Shown here: in pieces, positions 1-22,887 of the stretch
Layout of the letters: every line of letters starts with the position of its first letter
Position numbering within the stretch: the stretch's first letter is position 1
Virus record (IMG/VR): IMGVR_UViG_3300034073_004741
Location: 1 to 33,445 of that record
Source: a virus
Strand: one strand, 5' to 3'
Length of the DNA: 33,445 nt
Notes under the pieces: model-generated
What the model saw: the letters and a program-made list of their open reading frames with translations, nothing else
What the model was told of the DNA's origin: nothing
The model's database searches: none
Program-made: the position numbers and the translations under genes

Positions 1-3000
1 CCCGTATTGAGGGGCGAAGATGTATCTCCATCATCATTACAGCCTATCGCCAGAAGCAACTTTGATGTTGATTCTGAAACATTATTTATGAGCGAATTAA
101 ATAAATCCAGTCTGGATGATGATAAAAAGAAGATTTTTTTAGATGAGTTTAGAAAAAGAACTCGTGGTGGATGGAAATTTAGTAATTTTCATTTTAATTG
201 TCCATGTGTCATAGAGGTTCCGGCGGCTGAGCAAGCTGAGGTGAATAAGATATTATCTAGATACTCTTATGTGGCTTCGCCGCTTTCCGGACCAATATCA
301 GCTGGCAATATTTCAAAGACAATTTCAGATCCAATTGCTGGAGATATTCCTGCCTATTACTCTCCAACTTTGCCCGATGGATCAAGGTGGCTAAATCAGG
401 ATGGCGAAGACTTGGCGAGAAAACAGGGCACAGTATCATATCTGGTCTGTGGAGCAAGTACTACTCTCTCTTCCTTCTCTAGGGATTCATCTGAATTGGC
501 GGCATCTCTTCCAAATTTAATTAAGAAAAACTTTGAAGAAAGTCCGGATAAAGGTGCTAGATTCATTAGGGCACTAATATCTTTAGGCGTTGATGTAGAA
601 GATATTATTCCATTTTTACAAAACTTCAATAATCCAGTTGAAGCTTTTGCATCTCTTTCTAGGGATAGAGTCGGCAAAATTGCACATCTATTATCAATGG
701 CATCTAAAGATGTTAACCTAGGAAAAGATGACACATTTGAGCTCCTAAAAGACTTGCAATTAGTATGTCAAAATGGACACAAGTTTACTATTAAAGATTC
801 AATTTATTTTGGAAAAACACATACCGGATTTAGTGTTAATCGTAAAAAGTCTCCATTTTCTCAAGACACAATAATGAGAAGCGGGATACTAACATCTGTT
901 GGTATTGATAACTTTAATAATACTTTAAAGTTAAAAAATTCAAATAACGCCCAATACATTAGACCAATAAAGATAGAGGATAGAGCTGCATTTAAAAAGC
1001 AATATGACGAATGGATTGCTTCGGGAAGGCCTTTATCCGATCTTTATTTTTCTGTCACAGATGAGCAAGGAAATGTTCATAGTTATTCATATGGAAAGGT
1101 AGATCTAAAAAATATTTGGGGAAGTGAATTTCTATCCGGTTCTGCTCCTCCATCTTCTACTGATTTAGAAACAAGAAAGAAGATGACGGAGAGAGGTGTA
1201 ACTACCTCAGTTTCTGATAGTGAAAAAGATATCATTGGTTCTGGCGAAGAGATGAGAAGCTATTCCACTCAGGAGTGGAGACAAGAGGATCTCAAGTCAC
1301 TTCCAGTCCTGAACTCTTTGTCAAGAGATATGTTTCAAGAAGATGCGAGTGGATATAAGATTATATCATTAGTTGCCTCAGTTATAAAAGACCAACTAAG
1401 AATGGTTAGAACTTGGCTTGATTCATCTTCAAGACTTGATATTGTTGATTATCAGGCCCTAGAAGATGTTAAGGTCTATGATATAGAAAGGGAAAAACAA
1501 AAGAATCAGTTATTAACAACAGAAGAATTTGAAAGAGCAATAAAAATATTAGAAGATTCTTTATTCTTTTTGTGTGATCAAGATGCTCCAAGCCCCGAAG
1601 AGGTAAGCCCTATCTATCAAAAATCACTATCTATCTTTAGAAGAAATTATGTTTCTGAGTTGGAAAAGATTAATTTAAATTTTGCCCAATTTTTTGGAGA
1701 TAAAGCTATAAAACTTTTATCTCCAGAATGGATTGCCAAACAACTAGTATTCTCCCTGGTGAGGGGCTCTTACCAGGTTGATAGTCGTACCGGTTCTATG
1801 GTAAAAGAGGTATATGACAATCCATCTGAAGGCGTTTACTTTTTCCAGTTTAATTACGAAGATATTTATGATGAAGTAAGAGATGGTGTAAACAAATTTG
1901 TAAACATAATTTCGGACAAAATTAAATTTATAGAAAATGAAAAGGAAGTAGATAGAATACTCCTGGACCCTCGTATCAAACAAAAGGGAGATGTTGAATC
2001 TTTCAATAGAATGATGAGAATTAATGGTAAGGAATATAGCGGAAGAATCCTTAAGGCTTCTATGGCCTTTTACTTTGCAGAATCTCTCAGCAGGATTTAT
2101 AAGACGTACCTTATGGGTATAAATTCTCCCAATTTTATTGGACATGAATTTGACATTAATCTTTTTAACATTAGTGATATAATAAATATATCTGAAGATC
2201 AGATTGAAAAAATATCTATAAGTCAATCAGATTTTGAAGATATAGATGATTTTTATGAAAATTATCTAGAAGAAGTAACGGCCTGTTTGTCTGAGCTTGA
2301 AAAATCAACGATTTTATCAAAGACTGCTTGCTACTCCTCTCTCTATACAGAAAAGGCTCTTGAATATATTAAGAACCAATTATCATCAATATTAACATCA
2401 GATCAATTAGATCAGCAGCAAAAAGAACGTGCAAAATTAATCATAAATAATGTTATGGTTGTAACTCCGTTTGATACAATTGATTTGAATTCAAATGGAA
2501 AACATAGAAAGTTCTTTGGTGGAAAAGATTCTATAGAGCCGATAAGTTTGATTCCAAACTTTAGCGCAATATTGGCCGAGCATGTCAGTGGCTCCTATCC
2601 AATCTATGTTCTAATGGCCGGTGGAAGCAAAATGCATTCATTTGATTTTGGCAAAGATGAAAATGGAAGAGAATTTAGAATATCTCCAGCGCAAGAAGGA
2701 AGACTTAAGATTCTTACTTTAATCAACCCAAGCTCTTTAGGCTCTTACTATCAGGTTAATGATGTTGAAGTAAAGCAGGTTGAGAAAGTATATCCAGGAT
2801 GGAATATAATAGAAGTATCTGTTACTTCAAATAAAAATTCCAAAGAATATACTGGTGGAAATTATTTCTATTTAGATGCAACCAAGATTTCATCTAACAC
2901 TGGATTAAAAGAGGGTGTAAGCATTTATTACCATCCCGGAAGTGTGGTTGTAAAAGAAGAAAAGAAAGAAATAGGTGTCATAAATAATCAGCTAAACTTT

Positions 3001-4389
3001 GACTCCACAGATTCACTTTCAGTTGGTCAACTTTCCGCAAGAACCGGTTCCTCAAGATTGGTTCCACCACTTCCACTGATTGAGGACCCTGTGCAGATGG
3101 CCGGAATCAGTAATGCCGGAGTTCCAATTCCTCTTAAATATAGCGGGGAAGACTTTGTATCTTCTAAGGATATTTTTCCAATTTTAGATATAAAAGTTCC
3201 AGTCATTATAAATTCTAATTTAGAAATTGATATATCTGATTTGTTATTGAGATATCCTACTAGCGCAGCTTTTTCTTATTTAAGAAATATAAACTCTCTA
3301 TACAATGAGATGTGCAAAAAGATAGAAATGGGAGCCTCAGAAGATTCTCAGATTATTGATAATTATAAAGAACAAATAAAACTAATATGGCAATCATATA
3401 GAGCTTTGCCATTTTTTGTTGCAAATAAGCAAACCGGATCCAAGAGGGAAAGGCTGATCTTTGGAAAACAAGATGTTATCAAACCCAGAAGATCTCCATA
3501 TATTCCATTTTTAGATTGGGTTACTTCCTATAAGATAATAAGCCAAGAAGTTTGCGGACCATCATATGGAGGTCACTCCTTGTGGGGAACTGATTTTTCG
3601 CAAGAAGATATTGCAGAAATAAAAGATGGCATTGAAAACTTCTTAATTGATATAAATAGACTTGATGTTCTTGCCAAAAGCTTGGAAAAAGCTATTTATG
3701 AAAATGAGGGCAAAAAAGTAACTATTGATCCAAAGGATATGCTAGATCCTATTCAGAGACTATTCTCTGGAAATCTTACACCAGAGCAGGTCTATAAATA
3801 TTTTGGGTATAGCTTTAGTACAGATAAAGATTTTACATCCCAGGATAATTTCGCTTGGGGCAACACACCATCTGATAAGGATGAAAGAGAGAATATCCAA
3901 AACGTTGCAATAGGAAAGGTTGTAAAACATTTTGGAGAATGGCTATCAGCTCCTGGAAAATTCTATTCTATTGGTAAATATGATCATCTTTCTGGCGAGA
4001 ACATTCCATATGCCAGGATCGTTACTGGAAATAGAGTTTTCCCAAAAACCTTGGATCAGAGACAGGCCTTATTGAAGGCAAAAAAACAATCTTCTGATGC
4101 CCAAATATTATCTCCTGACGATTTATTTTCTTCTCAATTTTATTATGGCTCTGGTGCAGATGAAGAATATTATCCAATTCCACAGGATCCCGAACATTAC
4201 AAGGAATATCTAAATAGACTCAAGAAAGTTAGGCATATTGGAACAAAGACATTTGCAGAGTCAATGTCTAAATATGCTCAAGATTCTGTGATCTATAGAA
4301 TAAGAGAGTTTTTGGCATCTGAATTCCTAAAGAGTGGCGGAAGAAAGGAAATCTTCATCAAGTTGGCAAAATCCTTAGATAAGCGTTGA
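1..4389 (+). CDS. Very large protein of unknown function, 5' end cut by window edge
   Basis: The frame is open from base 1 with no stop upstream, so the gene very probably begins before the window; the first possible in-window start is a TTG at position 7 without a convincing ribosome site. At least 1460 residues are encoded, ending in TGA at 4387-4389. I recognise no family. The protein is mixed alpha/beta in character, soluble-looking, with no obvious membrane segment, signal peptide or P-loop, and contains isolated cysteines such as a CPC near residue 65. The C-terminal tail is basic (KLAKSLDKR). Its size and position next to a terminator-closed unit would suit a virion or tail-associated protein, but that is inference only. 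Confidence 0.8.
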   Translation, partial: PVLRGEDVSPSSLQPIARSNFDVDSETLFMSELNKSSLDDDKKKIFLDEFRKRTRGGWKFSNFHFNCPCVIEVPAAEQAEVNKILSRYSYVASPLSGPISAGNISKTISDPIAGDIPAYYSPTLPDGSRWLNQDGEDLARKQGTVSYLVCGASTTLSSFSRDSSELAASLPNLIKKNFEESPDKGARFIRALISLGVDVEDIIPFLQNFNNPVEAFASLSRDRVGKIAHLLSMASKDVNLGKDDTFELLKDLQLVCQNGHKFTIKDSIYFGKTHTGFSVNRKKSPFSQDTIMRSGILTSVGIDNFNNTLKLKNSNNAQYIRPIKIEDRAAFKKQYDEWIASGRPLSDLYFSVTDEQGNVHSYSYGKVDLKNIWGSEFLSGSAPPSSTDLETRKKMTERGVTTSVSDSEKDIIGSGEEMRSYSTQEWRQEDLKSLPVLNSLSRDMFQEDASGYKIISLVASVIKDQLRMVRTWLDSSSRLDIVDYQALEDVKVYDIEREKQKNQLLTTEEFERAIKILEDSLFFLCDQDAPSPEEVSPIYQKSLSIFRRNYVSELEKINLNFAQFFGDKAIKLLSPEWIAKQLVFSLVRGSYQVDSRTGSMVKEVYDNPSEGVYFFQFNYEDIYDEVRDGVNKFVNIISDKIKFIENEKEVDRILLDPRIKQKGDVESFNRMMRINGKEYSGRILKASMAFYFAESLSRIYKTYLMGINSPNFIGHEFDINLFNISDIINISEDQIEKISISQSDFEDIDDFYENYLEEVTACLSELEKSTILSKTACYSSLYTEKALEYIKNQLSSILTSDQLDQQQKERAKLIINNVMVVTPFDTIDLNSNGKHRKFFGGKDSIEPISLIPNFSAILAEHVSGSYPIYVLMAGGSKMHSFDFGKDENGREFRISPAQEGRLKILTLINPSSLGSYYQVNDVEVKQVEKVYPGWNIIEVSVTSNKNSKEYTGGNYFYLDATKISSNTGLKEGVSIYYHPGSVVVKEEKKEIGVINNQLNFDSTDSLSVGQLSARTGSSRLVPPLPLIEDPVQMAGISNAGVPIPLKYSGEDFVSSKDIFPILDIKVPVIINSNLEIDISDLLLRYPTSAAFSYLRNINSLYNEMCKKIEMGASEDSQIIDNYKEQIKLIWQSYRALPFFVANKQTGSKRERLIFGKQDVIKPRRSPYIPFLDWVTSYKIISQEVCGPSYGGHSLWGTDFSQEDIAEIKDGIENFLIDINRLDVLAKSLEKAIYENEGKKVTIDPKDMLDPIQRLFSGNLTPEQVYKYFGYSFSTDKDFTSQDNFAWGNTPSDKDERENIQNVAIGKVVKHFGEWLSAPGKFYSIGKYDHLSGENIPYARIVTGNRVFPKTLDQRQALLKAKKQSSDAQILSPDDLFSSQFYYGSGADEEYYPIPQDPEHYKEYLNRLKKVRHIGTKTFAESMSKYAQDSVIYRIREFLASEFLKSGGRKEIFIKLAKSLDKR

Positions 4390-4451
4390 CGCTCCGGCCC
4401 GATGGGCTAATATGGGATGGAGCAGAGAGCTCAAGCAAAAGGAGTTGCAAA

Positions 4452-4733
4452 ATGACTGTAGTAAAGATTTTCAATGATAACACCTCCCAAGAGGATACTA
4501 ACACAACATGGTCCATGGACGATGTTAGAGAGTACGTAAAGCAATATCGCGTATACAAGCAACAGATCAAGGATCTTCAGCAATCTCTTTCGGAGTGGTC
4601 ATCTGAATTCATTAAGGAAAAATCTCTTCCAAAGAAGGAGCTTGCAACTGCGCTTCGCGTAGATGAGCAGGATCTAGATATGGGAACCGTAAATGAAATT
4701 TACGATACCATCACCGGTTCTTCTGAAGACTGA
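4452..4733 (+). CDS. Small acidic helical protein, unknown function
   Basis: The 93-residue product starts at ATG 4452 because AAAAGGAG lies at 4437-4444, seven bases upstream. An in-frame upstream start at 4386 would overlap the previous stop and add 22 atypical residues, so it was not used. The middle (about residues 22-55) is a predicted amphipathic helix rich in Gln, Lys and Tyr, followed by a short segment with LPKKELATALRVDEQDL that resembles a small helical domain. It is the last gene before a strong terminator at 4753 and is probably cotranscribed with the large gene upstream. No family was recognised. Confidence 0.75.
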   Translation: MTVVKIFNDNTSQEDTNTTWSMDDVREYVKQYRVYKQQIKDLQQSLSEWSSEFIKEKSLPKKELATALRVDEQDLDMGTVNEIYDTITGSSED

Positions 4734-4752
4734 TTCAGAAAAAAGTCAACTG

Positions 4753-4786
4753 GAGGCCAGCAATATTGCTGGCCTCTTTTTGTTTT
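4753..4786 (+). terminator. Rho-independent terminator
   Basis: A perfect 24-base inverted repeat (4753-4776; arms GAGGCCAGCAAT and ATTGCTGGCCTC) is followed at once by TTTTTGTTTT. The GC-rich lower stem plus T-tract is a textbook intrinsic terminator. It separates the upstream unit from the polymerase operon. Confidence 0.93.
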
Positions 4787-4836
4787 AGCTACTAATTTTA
4801 AAACTATAATAGCATATCAATCCTCCTCGGAATCAC

Positions 4837-4864
4837 TTGACCGTGCGCAATCCGCGCCTATAGT
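4837..4864 (+). promoter_or_regulatory. Candidate sigma70-type promoter for the polymerase operon
   Basis: TTGACC (4837-4842) and TATAGT (4859-4864) are separated by 16 bases, close to the bacterial housekeeping consensus. They lie 25 bases before the dnaE start and just after the terminator at 4753-4786, which is where a promoter is needed. A second TATAAT at 4805-4810 has no good -35 partner. Identification is by motif only. Confidence 0.55.
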
Positions 4865-4888
4865 TCAGACAGCATAATAGGAGAAAAA

Positions 4889-7540
4889 ATGTCAAAAGGC
4901 AGATTTGTGTCATTACATAACCATACAGAGCTTGGGTCACCGCTCGATGGAATGAATGATGTTTACGATCTCTTCAAGAGAGCTAAAGAAGTAGATCATC
5001 CAGCAGTTGCAGTAACTGATCACGGTACGATGACCGCTCTTTATGATGCTTATCTTGCCAGCCAGCAAACTGGAGTAAAGCTCATTCCTGGCATGGAAGC
5101 TTATTTTACAGATGATCTGGAAGGCAAAAAGAATTACCATTTAGTTCTTCTTGCTCAAAATGAGATCGGATACAAAAACATCCTAAGGCTTAATTACTTG
5201 GCTTACCAGAATCAAGTATCTGGCTATATGGGAAAGAAAACACCAAGAATTTCTTGGGATCATATTGGTGAATTTAACGAAGGAGTTATTGCGCTAACCG
5301 CTTGTTCCAATGGCCTCGTCGGTAAGACTTTGATCACAGAGCAAGAAGAGGAGCTTGGCCTATCATATGTAAAGAAATTTCACTCTATCTTTAAGGACAG
5401 GTTCTTTTTAGAGTTACAGCCGCATAGGCTTCAGGCAACTGGAAAAGATGGAAAAGAAGTTAATCAGCAAAAATTAAACGAATCTCTTCTTCGCATTTCT
5501 CGTGAGCAAGGAATTCCATATGTAATAACTTGCGATGCTCACTATCGAGATAAAGACCATGCAAAATATCACGATTTCATGCTGGCAATTAAAGATAAGA
5601 AAGCTGTAGACGATCCTGATAGGTTTCGTTATGGCGTTCAGGACATGTATTTAAAAACTCATGAAGAAATTATCTCCTTTTTTGGCAGAGGAATTGCCGA
5701 AAGAGGCATGGATAATACGATGAAGATTATGCAACTTTGCGAAGAGCCTCATTACATCAAGCCGAAGAAACCAATGCTTCCAATCTTTCCGGTAAGAGAA
5801 GAGGCTGCGTACGATACTTTCTCCACATGGAGAGATAAACAAAAATCATCTGCAGACGTTCCAGAGGACAAGCTTTACTTGAGATGGAAATGTATTGAGG
5901 GCTTTAAGGAAAAGCTATCGCATATTGATGCTGATAAAAGAGAAGAATACTGGGACAGAGTCAAGATGGAGCTTTCCATCCTTGAAGACAAAAATTTCTC
6001 CTCATATATGTTGATCGTATCTGACTATATTAACTGGGCTAAAGATAGAATGCCGGTTGGTCCGGCCCGTGGATCAGCGGCTGGCTCACTTGTTGCGTAC
6101 CTTACAGGAATTACTTCAGTAGATCCTATGGAATATGATCTTCTCTTTGAAAGATTTCAGAATAGAGAGAAAAAGTCTTTCCCAGATATTGATACGGACT
6201 TTTCAAATCCGGGATTGGTCAAGGAGTATCTGAAGGAAAAATATGGACAAGATAGAGTTGCTTCTATTTCAAACTGGAGCACCCTATCTCCCAAGGTTAT
6301 TGTGAAGGACGTTGCAAGATCGCTCAGACTTGGTGGTGATAAATCTACTGCATTTACAATTGCAAATAACATTACAGCTATGATGCCAGATTCTGAATCA
6401 CTAGATGATGCAATGAGAGAAAGTAAAGAGTTTTCAACTTGGATGAGAAAGTTTCCAGAACTTTATGAGTATGGAAGCAAACTGCAGAATCTAACTAGAA
6501 ACTGGTCTGTTCATGCCGCTGGCGTTGTTATTGGCGAAGATGCTCTTTACAATGTTGCGCCACTAAGATTTGATGAAGAAGGAAACGTCGTTACTCAATG
6601 GGAGAAGACAAGATGTGAAGACAATGGTCTCATCAAGATGGATCTCCTCGGTCTTAAGACACTAACGGTTATTGATGAAACATTTAAGCTGATTAAAGAA
6701 ACTACTGGACAGGAGCTTTCTGTAGATGACATCAATATCCACGATCAAGATGTATACAGAATGCTTGGAGAGGGAAGAACGCTTGGAGTATTCCAGCTAG
6801 AATCATCTCTAACTCCATTTTGTATAAAATTAAAACCAAAATCTATTGAAGATATTTCTGCAATCAATGCAATCGGAAGACCCTCTTGTGTTCCGGAGGA
6901 ACGTAGAATTTATGCCGCAAGAAGATTGGGTGAAGAAAAGGTTATATATGATCATCCTAACCTGGAAAGAGCTCTAAAGAAAACTTATGGGGTCTTGGTT
7001 TATGAAGAACAGGCAATGATGATTGCGCAGGATTGCGCAGGATGGGATCTGAACCAAGCTGATGCTCTTCGTAAGATTAGCAAGCTCAAAGGAAAGGATC
7101 CAGAATTAGTCCTAAAGACTGAAGCGAACTTTGTAAAAGACTGTATGCAACATAGCGGTATGAAATATGAGTTAGCTTCATCTATCTGGGAGAGATACAT
7201 TCTACCCCTCGGTGGTTATGCCTTTAATAAGTCCTTGCACTTTTCTGAGGAAGTGAGTATAATAAGAAATGGGGAGGCAATGGTGCTTCCAATTATTGAT
7301 GTTAAATCTGGCGATTTTGTTTGTTCAAGGGACGAAAAAACAGGTGAAAAAATCACAGTGCAAGTCAGGGATAATCATTATCACGGTAGACTTCCAGTTT
7401 ACGAAGTTGAGCTAGAAACCGGAGAAAAAGTAAAATGCACAATGAATCACAAATTCAGAACTCAAGATGGGCAGATGTTGCCCCTATGGTTGATTCAGAA
7501 GGAAAATTTGAGTATACTTGCCTCTGCGGAAAACAGATAA
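4889..7540 (+). CDS. dnaE: DNA polymerase III alpha subunit, N-terminal part, fused to N-terminal split-intein fragment
   Basis: Bacterial-type family C replicative polymerase. Residues 1-230 are a PHP domain keeping metal-ligand motifs (HNH at 10-12, TDHGT at 43-47, CDAHY at 215-219, HD at 228-229). The palm carries GPARGSAAGS (391-400), the catalytic pair D435 and D437 in FPDIDTDF, and the third aspartate D585 in KMDLLGLKTLTVI. At K781 the conserved GGYAFNK motif is interrupted: residues 782-883 are an intein N-fragment with block A (SLHFSEEVSI) and block B (TMNH, T851 and H854), then a TAA stop. The start has AGGAG at 4878-4882, six bases upstream. The missing fingers end, HhH and OB parts are encoded at 8720-9865. 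Alone it should be inactive; activity requires trans-splicing with that product. Confidence 0.95.
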   Translation: MSKGRFVSLHNHTELGSPLDGMNDVYDLFKRAKEVDHPAVAVTDHGTMTALYDAYLASQQTGVKLIPGMEAYFTDDLEGKKNYHLVLLAQNEIGYKNILRLNYLAYQNQVSGYMGKKTPRISWDHIGEFNEGVIALTACSNGLVGKTLITEQEEELGLSYVKKFHSIFKDRFFLELQPHRLQATGKDGKEVNQQKLNESLLRISREQGIPYVITCDAHYRDKDHAKYHDFMLAIKDKKAVDDPDRFRYGVQDMYLKTHEEIISFFGRGIAERGMDNTMKIMQLCEEPHYIKPKKPMLPIFPVREEAAYDTFSTWRDKQKSSADVPEDKLYLRWKCIEGFKEKLSHIDADKREEYWDRVKMELSILEDKNFSSYMLIVSDYINWAKDRMPVGPARGSAAGSLVAYLTGITSVDPMEYDLLFERFQNREKKSFPDIDTDFSNPGLVKEYLKEKYGQDRVASISNWSTLSPKVIVKDVARSLRLGGDKSTAFTIANNITAMMPDSESLDDAMRESKEFSTWMRKFPELYEYGSKLQNLTRNWSVHAAGVVIGEDALYNVAPLRFDEEGNVVTQWEKTRCEDNGLIKMDLLGLKTLTVIDETFKLIKETTGQELSVDDINIHDQDVYRMLGEGRTLGVFQLESSLTPFCIKLKPKSIEDISAINAIGRPSCVPEERRIYAARRLGEEKVIYDHPNLERALKKTYGVLVYEEQAMMIAQDCAGWDLNQADALRKISKLKGKDPELVLKTEANFVKDCMQHSGMKYELASSIWERYILPLGGYAFNKSLHFSEEVSIIRNGEAMVLPIIDVKSGDFVCSRDEKTGEKITVQVRDNHYHGRLPVYEVELETGEKVKCTMNHKFRTQDGQMLPLWLIQKENLSILASAENR

Positions 7541-8830
7541 AAAGTACAAATACATTTAGGAGGCATGTTGCAGGTTGTTCATCGTATATGGAGAGGGCAA
7601 TTGCTACAGGTTATTTTATCAAATGTAAGTTATGTGACTATACTGCACAAGTTTTGGCGCAACATATAAATCAAAAACATCCCCAGATAACTCCAGAGGA
7701 GTACTGCGAAGAACATTCCTGCTCACTAAAGTCGGATTATTATGAGCAAAACTCATTACAGAAGATACTAAAGGGCAGAGAGGTCGTCAGAGAAAGGGGA
7801 GAAGTTTCCAGGCGAAGGAAAAAGTTTGACGGCGGGGCTGTCGTGTGTATGATATGCTCTGAACCGTTTGAGCACCTTATCCAGCACCTAAGGCAAGCTC
7901 ACGGCACAAATCAGGTGGACTATCTATCCAAATTTCCTGTAGCTCAACTTCTTTCGGAATCATTCAAAACAATGGCATCAAATAGGAGTGGGAAAAACGG
8001 AAATTGGATAGCGAGAGCAAACGAAGCCGGAATTGATTTAACAGAATATAAAACAAAAATGGGTGCAGCTGTTTCTGCAGCTATTCTTAGTAATCCCGAA
8101 GAAAGAAGGAGGCGCTCATCTCTCATGGGCAAGATGTGGGAAGATCCTGAGAAGAAAGAAATATTTTTGAGAAATCAAAAAACTACAGGAACAAGAGTTT
8201 CTACTAGACCAGAAATACTTGCTGCCAGATCTGCAAGATTAAAGGCTTGGAGAGATAATAATCCTGATGCTTTTTATGTAAAATGTACAAAGGTAATGCA
8301 TGAGAAATGGTCTTCGATACCCGAAAGAAAACTCAGAGATTTTTGCCAAGAAATTAATGCGAATTTAAAATGGAATCAGCAGCTTAATTCAAAAGAATAC
8401 TTTAGGATAAACAAAAGAGGGAGAAAGCAAATCGACCTCATGGATAAAGATTTAAAGATTATAATCGAGTTAGATGGACCGCAACATTTTAGACCAATTC
8501 ACGGAGAAGATACCTTTGAAAAGGTGGTAGAAAAAGATCTGGAATTAGAAAGGTATTGTGTCGGAAATGGATTTACTCTAATAAGGGTTTCTTATTCGGA
8601 ATACCTATACAAACCTAGTATTAAGAATTTTAATGAAGAATGCCTCAATAAAATAAAGAATATATTAACAAATAACAAGCCTGGAATCCACAAAATAGGC
8701 AAAGAATATGGAGAGCAAAATGTCTAATATCAAATCAATAACATATGTTGGCGAAGAAGATACATACGATCTAGAGGTAGAGCATGCAGATCATCAATAT
8801 TATCTAGCTAATGGAATTCTTACATCAAAC
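7232..8830 (+). mobile_element. Split intein with internal homing-endonuclease gene interrupting dnaE
   Basis: The element begins at Ser codon 7232-7234, right after the extein FNK, and ends at Asn codon 8828-8830, right before extein SHS. Joining the exteins restores the canonical alpha-subunit motif FNKSHS. It has three coding parts: an N-intein of 102 residues (7232-7540), a free-standing nuclease gene (7435-8727), and a C-intein of 37 residues (8720-8830) ending in LANGILTSN. The fragment sizes are close to those known for cyanobacterial DnaE split inteins (roughly 102-123 and 36). The layout matches the fractured-gene class described from environmental phage sequences. Splicing activity is inferred, not shown. 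Confidence 0.92.
7435..8727 (+). CDS. Putative homing endonuclease, zinc fingers plus Vsr/EDxHD-like nuclease domain
   Basis: A 430-residue protein lies between the two polymerase halves. The N-terminus has three zinc-finger-like motifs: C29/C31/H44/C48, then two with identical C-x2-C-x9-H-x4-H spacing (C64, C67, H77, H82 and C138, C141, H151, H156). The last, CMICSEPFEHLIQHLRQAHG, resembles Ros/MucR fingers. Residues 180-300 are basic, with NUMOD-like repeats such as SSLMGKMWEDPEKK. Residues 300-392 look like a Vsr/DUF559 nuclease fold: D334, IIIELDGPQHF (E345, D347, H351), then D368 and R373. The ATG at 7435 has GGAG ten bases upstream and overlaps the N-intein by 106 bases; ATG 7486 is an alternative. 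Its expected role is cleavage of intein-free dnaE to drive homing, by analogy with the EDxHD family. Confidence 0.85.
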   Translation: MHNESQIQNSRWADVAPMVDSEGKFEYTCLCGKQIKSTNTFRRHVAGCSSYMERAIATGYFIKCKLCDYTAQVLAQHINQKHPQITPEEYCEEHSCSLKSDYYEQNSLQKILKGREVVRERGEVSRRRKKFDGGAVVCMICSEPFEHLIQHLRQAHGTNQVDYLSKFPVAQLLSESFKTMASNRSGKNGNWIARANEAGIDLTEYKTKMGAAVSAAILSNPEERRRRSSLMGKMWEDPEKKEIFLRNQKTTGTRVSTRPEILAARSARLKAWRDNNPDAFYVKCTKVMHEKWSSIPERKLRDFCQEINANLKWNQQLNSKEYFRINKRGRKQIDLMDKDLKIIIELDGPQHFRPIHGEDTFEKVVEKDLELERYCVGNGFTLIRVSYSEYLYKPSIKNFNEECLNKIKNILTNNKPGIHKIGKEYGEQNV

Positions 8831-9865
8831 TCTCACTCTATTTCTTATTCTTTGATTTCCTTTCATACTGCTTGGCTTCGTCATCATTATCCAACTGAAT
8901 TTATGACAGCCCTTATTAACTCGGAAGATCCAAACTCTGACAAAATTCAGGAGTATCTATCCGAATGCAATAACATGGGAATTGAAATTCTTCCACCAGA
9001 TGTTAATAATAGCAAGGGTCTATACTCTATTCTTGAGGAAGGAAAGATTCTTACCGGATTTTCAGCAATCAAAGGTGTTGGAGAAAAGGCGATCGAATCA
9101 ATTGTTAAAAACCAACCATACCATAATTTTGGTGAATTTATCTTCAAGAATGACTCTAAGGCAGCTGGAAAGACAGTTATCCAAGCTCTATCTAAGGCTG
9201 GAGCTTTTGATCTGTTCATGCGTTCTAGAAAAGATATTCATGAAAACTATCAGAAGCACAGAACAAAGGTAAAGGCATCAATCAAAAAGGTTCTTGAGCA
9301 ACATGCTAAAGTTAAAAATCCAGATTATAGCAAGCTTACCGCAAAAGAAAAGACAGAGTTTTTGGATGAAATAGAGTTGGAAATTCCTTTTGAACAAGTT
9401 GAGGCAATCATTAGGGATGTTGATTTGGGCGAAAGCGTCCCAGAATGGGAGCAGAAAGAGGTTCTTCTCTTTGAAAGAGAAACTCTAGGTAGAGCAATCT
9501 CTGGAAGCTTACACTCTGTGTTTAAATCCTTCTTTAGTGGCGGTCCAATGGTAACTCCTCTTTCTAGAGTTCAATCAATGGGAGATGGGAGCAGAATTAA
9601 AATTGAAGCAATTATTAAAACAAAAATCAAGGAATTTAAGATTAAAAATGGTAAAAATATAGGAAAGAAGTTTGCCAAATATCTCATTGAGGATGTTAAT
9701 GGTGATACTTGCGGCCTGACCTTGTGGGCTGATGATTATGAAAAATACAGAGGAATCTTAAAAGAAGGTCTGCCAATTAAAGCTATTTGCTCTGTAAATA
9801 ACTACTTGGATCAAAAAGATCTTGCACTTTCATCGTTGGAAAGAGTTTATGGGAGAGAAATATGA
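8720..9865 (+). CDS. dnaE: C-terminal split-intein fragment fused to DNA polymerase III alpha subunit, C-terminal part
   Basis: Start ATG 8720 is preferred over ATG 8708 because GGAG (8710-8713) sits six bases upstream. The first 37 residues are a C-intein with block F (TYDLEVEHADHQYYLANG) and terminal SN. The extein follows: SHSISYSLISFHTAWLRHHY, the end of the alpha-subunit fingers, a helix-hairpin-helix region (ILPPDVN, then AIKGVGEKAIESI), and a C-terminal OB-fold-like stretch around RIKIEAIIKTKIKEFK. The extein part is 344 residues, giving a spliced polymerase of 1125, close to the roughly 1160 of Escherichia coli DnaE. The start overlaps the nuclease stop by eight bases (ATGTCTAA), so translation is probably coupled. 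It ends in an ATGA overlap with the next gene. Confidence 0.93.
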   Translation: MSNIKSITYVGEEDTYDLEVEHADHQYYLANGILTSNSHSISYSLISFHTAWLRHHYPTEFMTALINSEDPNSDKIQEYLSECNNMGIEILPPDVNNSKGLYSILEEGKILTGFSAIKGVGEKAIESIVKNQPYHNFGEFIFKNDSKAAGKTVIQALSKAGAFDLFMRSRKDIHENYQKHRTKVKASIKKVLEQHAKVKNPDYSKLTAKEKTEFLDEIELEIPFEQVEAIIRDVDLGESVPEWEQKEVLLFERETLGRAISGSLHSVFKSFFSGGPMVTPLSRVQSMGDGSRIKIEAIIKTKIKEFKIKNGKNIGKKFAKYLIEDVNGDTCGLTLWADDYEKYRGILKEGLPIKAICSVNNYLDQKDLALSSLERVYGREI

Positions 9866-12056: not shown

Positions 12057-12593
12057 ATGAAAAAAATACTTGGTTTTGACATATCATCATCAACCATAGG
12101 CTACGGCCTTATAGAGTATGATGAAAATAATATTAAGATATCTGAATATGGACACCTAAAACCTCCAGGTTCGGACAAAGGTACTTTGGCTTTTCGCGCT
12201 CTTTCTGCATCTAAACTGCTAAAAGATTTATTACTAAAAATAAATCCAGATTATGTTGCCTTTGAAGATTACGCGAATAGATTTTCCGAAGGAAGAAGTA
12301 GCGCAAGAACCATTATAGTTCTTTCCGTTTTTAACGAGGTTTCTGCAATGACCTGCCTTCAGACCTTGGGTTTTGAGCCAGTAAAATATCCTGCAGTTAC
12401 TATTAGGTCTTCACTTTCCAAAATTAACGGACAGAAGATTACTTCAAAAGAAGAAGCTTTTAACTTTATAACTACAAACTATTCGGACTTCAAGTTAAGA
12501 CATAAAAAAACCGGAAAAATTAAAGATGAATGTTTTGATGAAGCCGATGCAATTGCTGTAGCTTTAACATTTATTAATAAGGAGAATAAATAA
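12057..12593 (+). CDS. ruvC: RuvC-like Holliday junction resolvase
   Basis: 178 residues, near the usual RuvC length (about 173). The RNase H-like fold is shown by ILGFDISSSTIGYGLIE with D8, the second strand motif YVAFEDYAN with E70, and DEADAIAVAL with D161 and D164, matching the four acidic residues of RuvC. It resolves branched DNA arising from recombination-dependent replication, probably also clearing junctions before packaging. ATG 12057 is the natural start for the fold, but no Shine-Dalgarno site lies at normal spacing: a stable hairpin occupies 12020-12049. The stop overlaps the next start (TAATG). Confidence 0.88.
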   Translation: MKKILGFDISSSTIGYGLIEYDENNIKISEYGHLKPPGSDKGTLAFRALSASKLLKDLLLKINPDYVAFEDYANRFSEGRSSARTIIVLSVFNEVSAMTCLQTLGFEPVKYPAVTIRSSLSKINGQKITSKEEAFNFITTNYSDFKLRHKKTGKIKDECFDEADAIAVALTFINKENK

Positions 12594-14245
12594 TGGCTAA
12601 AGATTTAAATTACTCTTCACCTGGTAGGGCAAAGCTACTTGCTGGCTCAGAGAAGTTGGCAAGAACTGTTGCCGTCACAATGGGACCTCAGGGTAAGAAT
12701 GTTATTATTGGAAAATTTGTTGGAGCACCAGTACTGACTAAGGATGGCGTCTCTGTTGCTAGAGAGATAGTTTTAGAAGATCCTGTTGAAGATCTTTCTT
12801 GTCAGCTTATTAAAGAAGCAGCTGGAAGAACAGCAGACCTAGCTGGTGATGGAACTACTACCGCTACAGTTCTTACTCATGAAATGTTTTCTAGAGGAAA
12901 TGATCTAATAAATCAAAGATATTCTCCACTGCACCTTAAGCGCGGCATGGAATGGGCACTCCATCAGGTTGTTGAGCGTTTAAATGATATGGCGACAGAG
13001 GTTAAAGATTTTAATTCTTTGAAAAATATTGCAACAATCTCTGCAAACAATGATGGAGATTTGGGCAATATAATTGCTGAGGCATTCCATTCGGTTGGAT
13101 TAAATGGAACTGTTGTAGCCGAAGCCAGCCCAGGAATAGATAATACAATCAGATATGTGGAAGGAATAGAGATACAGGCTGGGGCTTCTTCTCCTGCTTA
13201 CTTTTTAGATGGCCAAACAGAAATTACTCTAGAGAATTGTCATATTCTCATCTCACTAGATGAGATATCAAATTTGATGCCAATTGTTGGAATTCTAAAT
13301 CAACTATCCGATCAGAGCAAGCCTATTCTTATTCTTGCGAAATCAGTAGAGAAGGAAGCTTTGGCTACACTTGTTGCTAATAACAAACTTGGAAGACTAA
13401 AAGTAGCATCAGTGGATCTTCCTAGGATGGGAATTGGAGAAGAAGGTCATAGGGAATGGGTAGATGCAATTTCGGTAATGGTCGGGGCCAAGGTTTTGGG
13501 AACCGCACTTGGAGCCCCACTTACTACTCTAAGGATTGAGGATCTTGGATTTGCAAATAAAGTGGTAGTTGATAGAAGTAAAACTAAAATCTTAGAAGGA
13601 AAGAAAGATTCTGCAAGATATCAAGCAAAGTTAGATCTCTATGAAGATGATCTTAAAAAGCTTGTTACTGAAAACATGAGATTTGATATTAAGAAAAGAT
13701 TAGCTCTTCTATGTAATAAGGCCGCTATTATTACCGTTGGATACTCAACTGAGCTTGAGCTAAGAGAGAAGGGTGACCGTATAGAGGATTCTATCTGCGC
13801 AACAAGGGCAGCTATTGAAGAAGGGTATGTTCCAGGTGGTGGAACGGCTCTCTTAAGGGCTGCATCCCAGGTCTCGCTGGACAGTTTGGATTCCAGACTG
13901 CATCAGGCAGCAATGGTAGTTCTGGATTCATGTAAAGCACCAATCAGACAGATATCACAAAATGCCTCTGAAGATGGGGATGAGATTATATCTAAGGTTT
14001 TAGAGTCTGATAGTTTTAGATTTGGATTTAATGCCGCAACCTTAGAGTTTGGGGATATGGTAGACTTTGGAGTTATTGACCCCAAGAAAGTTACCAGAAC
14101 TGCCCTACAAAATGCTGTCAGCATTTCATTGTTGCTTATAAATACTGAGGCTATAGTTTCAGAACAGCAAAATAATCCATCTAGCTGGCAACCTCCAGCT
14201 GGATGGAGACCTCCCGAAACGGGAAAACTTTCACACAAATACTGA
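12593..14245 (+). CDS. groEL: GroEL-type (group I) chaperonin
   Basis: 550 residues, collinear with Hsp60/GroEL. Nucleotide-binding motifs are present: MGPQGKNVII near 30-39, TKDG with D51, AGDGTTTATVL with D86-T90, a catalytic aspartate in DRIEDSICATRAAIEEG, and VPGGGTALLRA. It should form ATP-driven folding chambers for phage proteins. The apical domain is diverged, and the usual GGM-repeat C-terminal tail is replaced by a Trp/Pro-rich segment (SSWQPPAGWRPPETGK). No GroES-like gene lies nearby; it may use the host co-chaperonin or work alone, as proposed for some phage chaperonins. AAGGAG (12579-12584) precedes the start by eight bases. Downstream is recA. Confidence 0.95.
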   Translation: MAKDLNYSSPGRAKLLAGSEKLARTVAVTMGPQGKNVIIGKFVGAPVLTKDGVSVAREIVLEDPVEDLSCQLIKEAAGRTADLAGDGTTTATVLTHEMFSRGNDLINQRYSPLHLKRGMEWALHQVVERLNDMATEVKDFNSLKNIATISANNDGDLGNIIAEAFHSVGLNGTVVAEASPGIDNTIRYVEGIEIQAGASSPAYFLDGQTEITLENCHILISLDEISNLMPIVGILNQLSDQSKPILILAKSVEKEALATLVANNKLGRLKVASVDLPRMGIGEEGHREWVDAISVMVGAKVLGTALGAPLTTLRIEDLGFANKVVVDRSKTKILEGKKDSARYQAKLDLYEDDLKKLVTENMRFDIKKRLALLCNKAAIITVGYSTELELREKGDRIEDSICATRAAIEEGYVPGGGTALLRAASQVSLDSLDSRLHQAAMVVLDSCKAPIRQISQNASEDGDEIISKVLESDSFRFGFNAATLEFGDMVDFGVIDPKKVTRTALQNAVSISLLLINTEAIVSEQQNNPSSWQPPAGWRPPETGKLSHKY

Positions 14246-22101: not shown

Positions 22102-22887
22102 ATGAATCTGGAGGATACATTTAGACTGCTAGAAAATATAGCAAGCTCTAATTATATTGGCAAGCCTATGCTTGTTGGAGGAATTCCTAGAGATATTTAT
22201 CTTGGAATAAATAAAGATTTTTACAAAGATATAGACCTCACAACTAATTCTCCGGATATCCTAAGATTAGGCATTAGTTTTGCAGATAGAATTGACAGCT
22301 CTTTTCATCTATTTGATGATGGTCATTTGAGCGTTTATTTTCAAGATTATAATTATGACTTTTCTAGCAATTTTATATCTGAAAATGTTGTTGAATTCTT
22401 AAAAAAAGAAAAAGGTATTACAGATCCAAAATTTTTTGAAATTTATTCAAGAGATTTTACGATAAATACTCTTCATAAAGAGCTTTTTTCTGAAGATATT
22501 CTTGACCCTACTGGCATGGGACTTGATGATTGTAATCGTAAAATAATTAGAACAATTTGTGATCCAAATATAACTTTAAATGATGATCCAAGAAGAGCTT
22601 ATAGGGCTATAAACTTTGCTTCAAGATTTGGCTTTCAAATTGATAGAGAAATTATTTCTTTTATAAATAAAAATATAGAGATATTTTCTATTGAAAAAAA
22701 TCCAACGATCAAAGAAGCGTTTGTGTCATCGGCCATTTCTCAGGCTTTAGAAGCAGATTCAGATAGAACAATTTCAAACTTATTAGAAACAAATTTGTTT
22801 TATGAAGTTCCAATGATTGGAAGATTCAAGGAAGAACTTATTAGAAAAAGATTAGTTTTGAAATACTTAGATAATAAAAAATACTAA
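22102..22887 (+). CDS. CCA-adding enzyme / poly(A) polymerase family nucleotidyltransferase
   Basis: 261 residues with the class II nucleotidyltransferase signature: MLVGGIPRDIYLG (GG-x2-RD, 23-35), catalytic DID (43-45), YSRDFTINTL (116-124), and the base-recognition motif DDPRRAYRAINFASRFGF (161-178). Full bacterial CCA enzymes are about 400 residues or more, so the body/tail tRNA-binding part is largely missing. It may add CCA or short tails to host or phage tRNAs, or tail other RNAs; the exact substrate cannot be read from sequence. It lies oddly within the head block, far from any tRNA gene in view. AGGA (22091-22094) precedes the start by seven bases. Confidence 0.9.
   Translation: MNLEDTFRLLENIASSNYIGKPMLVGGIPRDIYLGINKDFYKDIDLTTNSPDILRLGISFADRIDSSFHLFDDGHLSVYFQDYNYDFSSNFISENVVEFLKKEKGITDPKFFEIYSRDFTINTLHKELFSEDILDPTGMGLDDCNRKIIRTICDPNITLNDDPRRAYRAINFASRFGFQIDREIISFINKNIEIFSIEKNPTIKEAFVSSAISQALEADSDRTISNLLETNLFYEVPMIGRFKEELIRKRLVLKYLDNKKY

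Follow-up and report, generated by a model that had tools for sequence, protein, structure and literature searches.

The window analysed here is the whole of IMG/VR record IMGVR_UViG_3300034073_004741, a single viral record of 33,445 nucleotides and a fragment of a genome. It carries a dnaE gene, encoding the alpha subunit of DNA polymerase III (PolIII alpha), which is divided between two open reading frames (ORFs) by the two halves of an intein, with a nuclease gene between them; all three lie on the + strand. The upstream ORF (4889-7540, 883 residues, stop 7538-7540) comprises a 781-residue DnaE extein (4889-7231) followed by a 102-residue N-intein (7232-7540, coding 7232-7537). The downstream ORF (381 residues) runs from its own ATG at 8720 to a stop at 9863-9865, with a second in-frame ATG at 8708, and comprises a 37-residue C-intein (8720-8830) followed by a 344-residue C-extein and stop (8831-9865). 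Profile matches and alignment to intact alleles assign the PHP, palm (motifs PDIDTDF and KMD) and fingers regions to the N-extein, which ends in LPLGGYAFNK; the C-extein begins with SHSISYS and contains the helix-hairpin-helix and OB region. Both halves are identified as PolIII alpha by Pfam, PHROG and NCBIfam, and the alignments run nearly end to end (NF007079 over residues 6-877 of 883 in the N-half, NF005616 over residues 2-374 of 381 in the C-half).

The gene is interrupted exactly between FNK and SHS (FNK/SHS hereafter), as seen both from the ORFs of the window and from intact relatives. Joined in silico, the two halves give a polymerase of 1125 residues that is free of gaps at the junction when aligned with intact alleles of 1123 residues. 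IMG/VR and bacterial genomes were scanned for relatives with pattern seeds, and the contig counts given here are lower bounds; individual relatives are denoted by L numbers. At least 23 contigs carry an uninterrupted dnaE at this site, with the junction exactly as the original prediction had it when it placed the end of the upstream gene within FNKSHS and the extein junction between K and SHS. The same prediction named an assembly artefact as one case that would overturn it. The locus is confirmed as real, neither chance nor artefact, because dozens of independent metagenome contigs share this architecture.

The two intein halves, likewise anticipated at 102 and 37 residues, are encoded in two separate genes and bear the residues characteristic of a split intein of class 1 type. 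Residue 1 of the N-intein is Ser and not Cys; almost every relative has Ser or Cys at this position, and L144 has Thr. Block B reads C69-T70-M-N-H73-K-F (CTMNHKF), and T70 and H73 of its T-x-x-H signature are invariant among 12 N-inteins. The C-intein closes with DHQYYLANGILTSN and the +1 Ser, that is, its end NGILTSN is followed directly by S; the terminal Asn (N37) and the +1 Ser (S38) are invariant in 13 sequences. The best solved relatives of the N-intein are cyanobacterial DnaE inteins (E 1.5e-8, 7qil), which are matched with E 6e-12 by the naturally fused intein of the relative L136. These similarities bear on the idea that a free-standing nuclease landed in dnaE by chance and that the intein-like tails flanking it are coincidental. 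Free-standing nucleases are indeed common in phages, but the similarity to solved DnaE inteins and a C-intein above the curated NCBI cut-off (TIGR01443, 22.9 against 15.6 bits) refute the idea, and cis inteins occupy the same dnaE site in Rhodococcus phages, in a gut phage and in L136; we give it practically no credence.

The gene between the halves is a free-standing endonuclease gene of 430 residues with its own start (7435-8727). Its presence had been foreseen correctly; the accompanying statement that it fills the gap between the halves needs correction, as it does more than that: its first 106 nucleotides lie within the N-intein gene, read in another frame, and its end overlaps the start of the C-half by 8 nucleotides. 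Profile matches to Pfam DUF559 and ROS_MUCR and to a PHROG homing endonuclease suggest a zinc-finger part for DNA binding at the front and a nuclease part at the end. The zinc-finger-like part (7513-7689) contains nearly invariant Cys29, Cys31, Cys48, Cys64, Cys67, His77 and His82, and the nuclease domain (8308-8724) contains invariant D334, E345, D347, H351, D368 and R384. The protein was modelled by AlphaFold on 24 homologues, and the model was used for a structural search by VIA-align. The best matches of the whole model are Vsr of E. coli (1cw0, Z 12.2; 1vsr, Z 11.3), followed by a score of 9.3. The nuclease domain alone, confidently modelled with a predicted local distance difference test (pLDDT) score of 91.6, gives 1cw0 at Z 12.3 and 1vsr at 11.4; next come 3hrl, an endonuclease-like protein (9.7), and a mitoribosomal chain (9.0). 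In this model the nuclease domain thus has the Vsr fold. The fold together with invariant E345, D347, H351 and D368 assigns the enzyme to the Vsr-like EDxHD family, these residues having been matched without recourse to the original motif definition. A tblastn search with the nuclease against 50,697 phage records gave no match.

The start signals of the nuclease gene and of the C-half are embedded in the codons of the preceding gene. A GGAG presumed to be the ribosome-binding site of the nuclease gene lies at 7421-7424 in N-intein codons for Gly-Glu, and a GGAG presumed to serve the C-half lies at 8710-8713 in the last nuclease codons. A purine-rich motif resembling a ribosome site is present at the nuclease start in 17 of the 17 loci that use this start, despite the fact that the codons concerned specify Gly-Glu or Gly-Arg. 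These signals argue against a single precursor, in which programmed frameshifting would join the three frames into one cis-splicing intein with an internal nuclease. The nuclease frame does overlap both intein frames at its ends, its offset from the N-intein frame is constant in most loci, and in L061 and L062 both intein halves share one open frame, all as a single precursor would have it. Nevertheless, the nuclease and the C-half each possess their own start and ribosome site, and the halves are retained where the nuclease frame offset differs (L055, L063), where the nuclease is absent (L020, L142, L144) and where 3.5-4.7 kb of other genes separate them (L036, L038). Inspection by eye further revealed no classical slippery heptamer in the window. 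We regard frameshifting into one precursor as highly improbable.

The relatives display a series of allele states at this site. Besides the intact alleles, the scans gave about 40 contigs with a split intein at FNK/SHS (43 entries if the window and contigs that are partial or nearly identical are counted in; over 35 contigs besides the window carry this split element) as well as six cis cases. The commonest state among the split alleles is the one with a nuclease, and all placed near homologues of the nuclease are located at the FNK/SHS site of dnaE. In L020, L023, L142 and L144 the nuclease has been lost and a gap of 35-113 nucleotides separates the halves; three of these (L023, L142, L144) keep a stump of the nuclease 3' end directly before the start of the C-half. 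Deletion of the nuclease tends to leave such a stump because the ribosome site of the C-half sits in the last nuclease codons. Unrelated genes of 3.5-4.7 kb occupy the interval in L036 and in L038/L039: Tad pilus-like proteins in L036, and a TnpB/Cas12f-like protein with a DNA methylase in L038 (8644-13310). L136 has a fused intein of 147 residues without a nuclease, and its polymerase is 92% identical to that of the split L130. At the same site, the split with nuclease of L130 spans 6001-7465 and the fused mini-intein of L136 spans 6001-6441, a pair that points to a recent change between the split and the cis state.

Several further arrangements accompany this series. L061 (3439-4611) and L062 (3664-4368) encode N- and C-intein in one open frame of 391 and 235 codons, respectively, with a Vsr-like nuclease in another frame of the same DNA that is long in L061 and truncated in L062; this may be a stage between the split and cis states, or else a cis intein whose DNA is overprinted with a nuclease gene. 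In L006 (1002-7146), L126 (around 4167-7815) and L026 (from 1440), dnaE is in three pieces, with a second split intein between PARG and SxAGS besides that at FNK/SHS. The first gap of L006 holds a different nuclease (323 residues, DUF7487/TnsA-like) and the second gap the Vsr-like one. In L168 (3-1955), a ribonucleotide reductase gene starts in mid-domain, directly preceded by a C-intein-like end (44% identity, E 8e-4); this is possibly a second fractured gene beside the fractured dnaE. L168 is titled as a Paracaedibacteraceae genome, but a phage-like gene set adjoins its dnaE, so we do not claim it as a bacterial case. Many carriers and empty relatives reside on contigs of more than 200 kb, up to 458 kb (L007, L012, L018, L033, L054, L055, L142, L145, L146). 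The element therefore circulates largely among jumbo phages that use a bacterial-type PolIII alpha.

Split and intact alleles are interleaved on the polymerase tree with at least six changes, and close kin can differ in state (L007 split, L024 empty). The inteins are 47-61% identical to that of the window where the corresponding dnaE sequences are only 29-42% identical. A deep dnaE clade that is strongly supported by the polymerases is rejected by the intein data in the approximately unbiased (AU) test (p 0.0045); for the dnaE clade to which the window itself belongs, the same test gave no significant result (p 0.33). L006 and L007 agree at 52% of third codon positions upstream of the element and at 48% downstream of it, compared with 75-81% in the N-intein, nuclease and C-intein (element against flanks over all positions, Fisher p 2e-13), and synonymous divergence is 0.26-0.36 inside the element compared with more than 0.7 outside. 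The element common to these two loci is far younger than the DNA on either side of it. From the identity gap between intein and polymerase, the AU conflict and the contrast within L006 and L007, it follows that the element travels from phage to phage as a single unit. When L006, L007, L024 and the window were examined for a local co-conversion tract beyond the element, none was seen.

The ratio of nonsynonymous to synonymous substitution (dN/dS) is about 0.15 in the N-intein and nuclease of L006 and L007; the element is therefore under purifying selection for its protein sequence. This bears on the possibility that the locus is a decaying dnaE, in which frameshifts broke up a former cis intein, its halves lost the ability to splice, and the phage relies on another polymerase. 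The frame of the nuclease differs from that of the halves, the nuclease is broken or a remnant in some relatives (L035, L023), and the window is a fragment, each in keeping with decay. It is contradicted by two halves that are both open and align end to end with intact DnaE, by catalytic intein residues invariant in 12-13 relatives, by low dN/dS in the inteins and exteins of relatives, by conserved start signals, and by dozens of independent split alleles whose exteins are free of decay. We consider decay very unlikely.

With high probability, the dnaE of this locus is fractured by a split intein that comes with a Vsr-like homing endonuclease, and its halves would splice in trans to one DnaE. 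The fractured-gene design put forward in the original prediction is supported by the sequence, the relatives, the nuclease fold and the empty alleles. In the mechanism we propose, the operon would yield three proteins: a DnaE-N/N-intein fusion, the Vsr-like endonuclease and a C-intein/DnaE-C fusion. Their translation would be interlocked, and the three genes coupled, through the start signals embedded in the codons of the neighbouring gene. The intein halves would associate, fold as a single HINT domain and join FNK to SHS by splicing, releasing an ordinary DnaE of about 1125 residues on which replication would depend. The endonuclease would cut intein-less dnaE around FNK/SHS in co-infecting phages, and repair would copy the whole element (N-intein, nuclease and C-intein) into the cut alleles.

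Several points weigh against this reading. When the two fragments are set against intein profiles, the C-intein passes its curated cut-off, and the N-intein falls just under (TIGR01445, 20.1 against 24.5 bits); the Pfam intein model PF14890 also scores below its curated cut-off on the N-half. Nuclease residues 1-19 and most of 100-173 are poorly predicted. The ribosome-site motif at the nuclease start is gone in all three loci where other genes have replaced the nuclease (L027, L036, L038), which speaks for the reading, but this comparison is small and weakened by shared descent. Splicing in trans is argued from established intein chemistry, and cleavage of empty alleles by the nuclease is likewise something we infer. 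Finally, the window covers 33 kb of a genome that may encode a second polymerase elsewhere.

Cyanobacterial DnaE split inteins use Cys nucleophiles and are not known to be accompanied by a nuclease gene. Like the intein of the window, those of Ssp and Npu interrupt the same protein at nearly the same place, are divided into 102 and 36 or 37 residues (IntN102/C36 in Npu; PMC2664965) and are related in sequence. The phage junction lies three residues downstream of the cyanobacterial one, which precedes CFNK (PMC2664965). The intein of the window is related to the cyanobacterial DnaE split inteins, but by its insertion site is not one of them. The link is one of similarity, as the placement of Npu in the intein tree is unreliable owing to long branches and an approximate Npu sequence.

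Dassa et al. (2009, NAR 37:2560) described from environmental phage DNA genes that are fractured by split inteins and accompanied by homing endonucleases of the Vsr-like (EDxHD) type, as related in PMC12350094, PMC7891396 and PMC6892783, and PMC12350094 credits the EDxHD/Vsr homing endonucleases to that work. Split DnaE inteins in cyanobacteria have long been known, as have, since 2009, fractured genes with nucleases in environmental phages. As far as these later accounts describe the 2009 examples, a conserved enzyme gene is interrupted by a split intein, and a Vsr-like endonuclease gene stands free between the halves, as in the window; the window differs in its host gene, dnaE at FNK/SHS, and in having the nuclease start and ribosome site within the N-intein. 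The locus in the window works like a fractured gene with a Vsr-like endonuclease and has the defining features that were tested. In the literature searched, which does not cover the 2009 list of Dassa et al., no previous account of a phage dnaE fractured at FNK/SHS was found; this is not proof of absence.

Related organisation is known from other phages. The split PolB intein of Pseudomonas phage MIJ3 also cuts a jumbo-phage replicative polymerase with a nuclease gene between the halves, in contrast involving a family B polymerase, an HNH nuclease and another insertion site (PMC6892783). The AceL NrdHF split intein has the fractured-gene organisation in probable phage DNA, unlike the window with a class 3 intein, a GIY-YIG nuclease and ribonucleotide reductase (PMC7891396). 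The phage homing endonuclease I-Bth0305I similarly has a catalytic domain tethered to extended DNA-binding regions, with a different target and setting (PMC3943268). Its structure is absent from the fold-search matches listed, which is uninformative either way.

We also note other genes of the window. A large ORF at 1-4389 (at least 1462 residues) is cut by the contig end and has no Pfam or PHROG match. A phage GroEL-type chaperonin is encoded at 12593-14245 between RuvC-like and RecA/UvsX-like genes, and a nucleotidyltransferase of the poly(A) polymerase head-domain type at 22102-22887 in the replication/packaging region.

The allele series invites a tentative and rather doubtful proposal, that the phage dnaE elements show how split inteins devoid of a nuclease arise and that the cyanobacterial DnaE inteins descend from the same lineage, having shifted by three residues along the gene and settled there long ago. 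In such a history, the intein would be split by a homing nuclease whose own start signal lies in the N-intein and whose tail holds the start signal of the C-half. Later loss of the nuclease would leave the tail, and the split would persist as a fossil, sometimes to be re-fused (L136) or filled with foreign genes (L036, L038). With this series of empty alleles, splits with nuclease, with stump or with other genes, fused inteins and dnaE in three pieces, it becomes testable how split inteins are born, persist and are lost, and the loci provide dozens of natural split inteins, the majority of which have Ser1. A polymerase that is essential yet exists only once two proteins have been joined would mean that a selfish element holds a vital gene of the phage.

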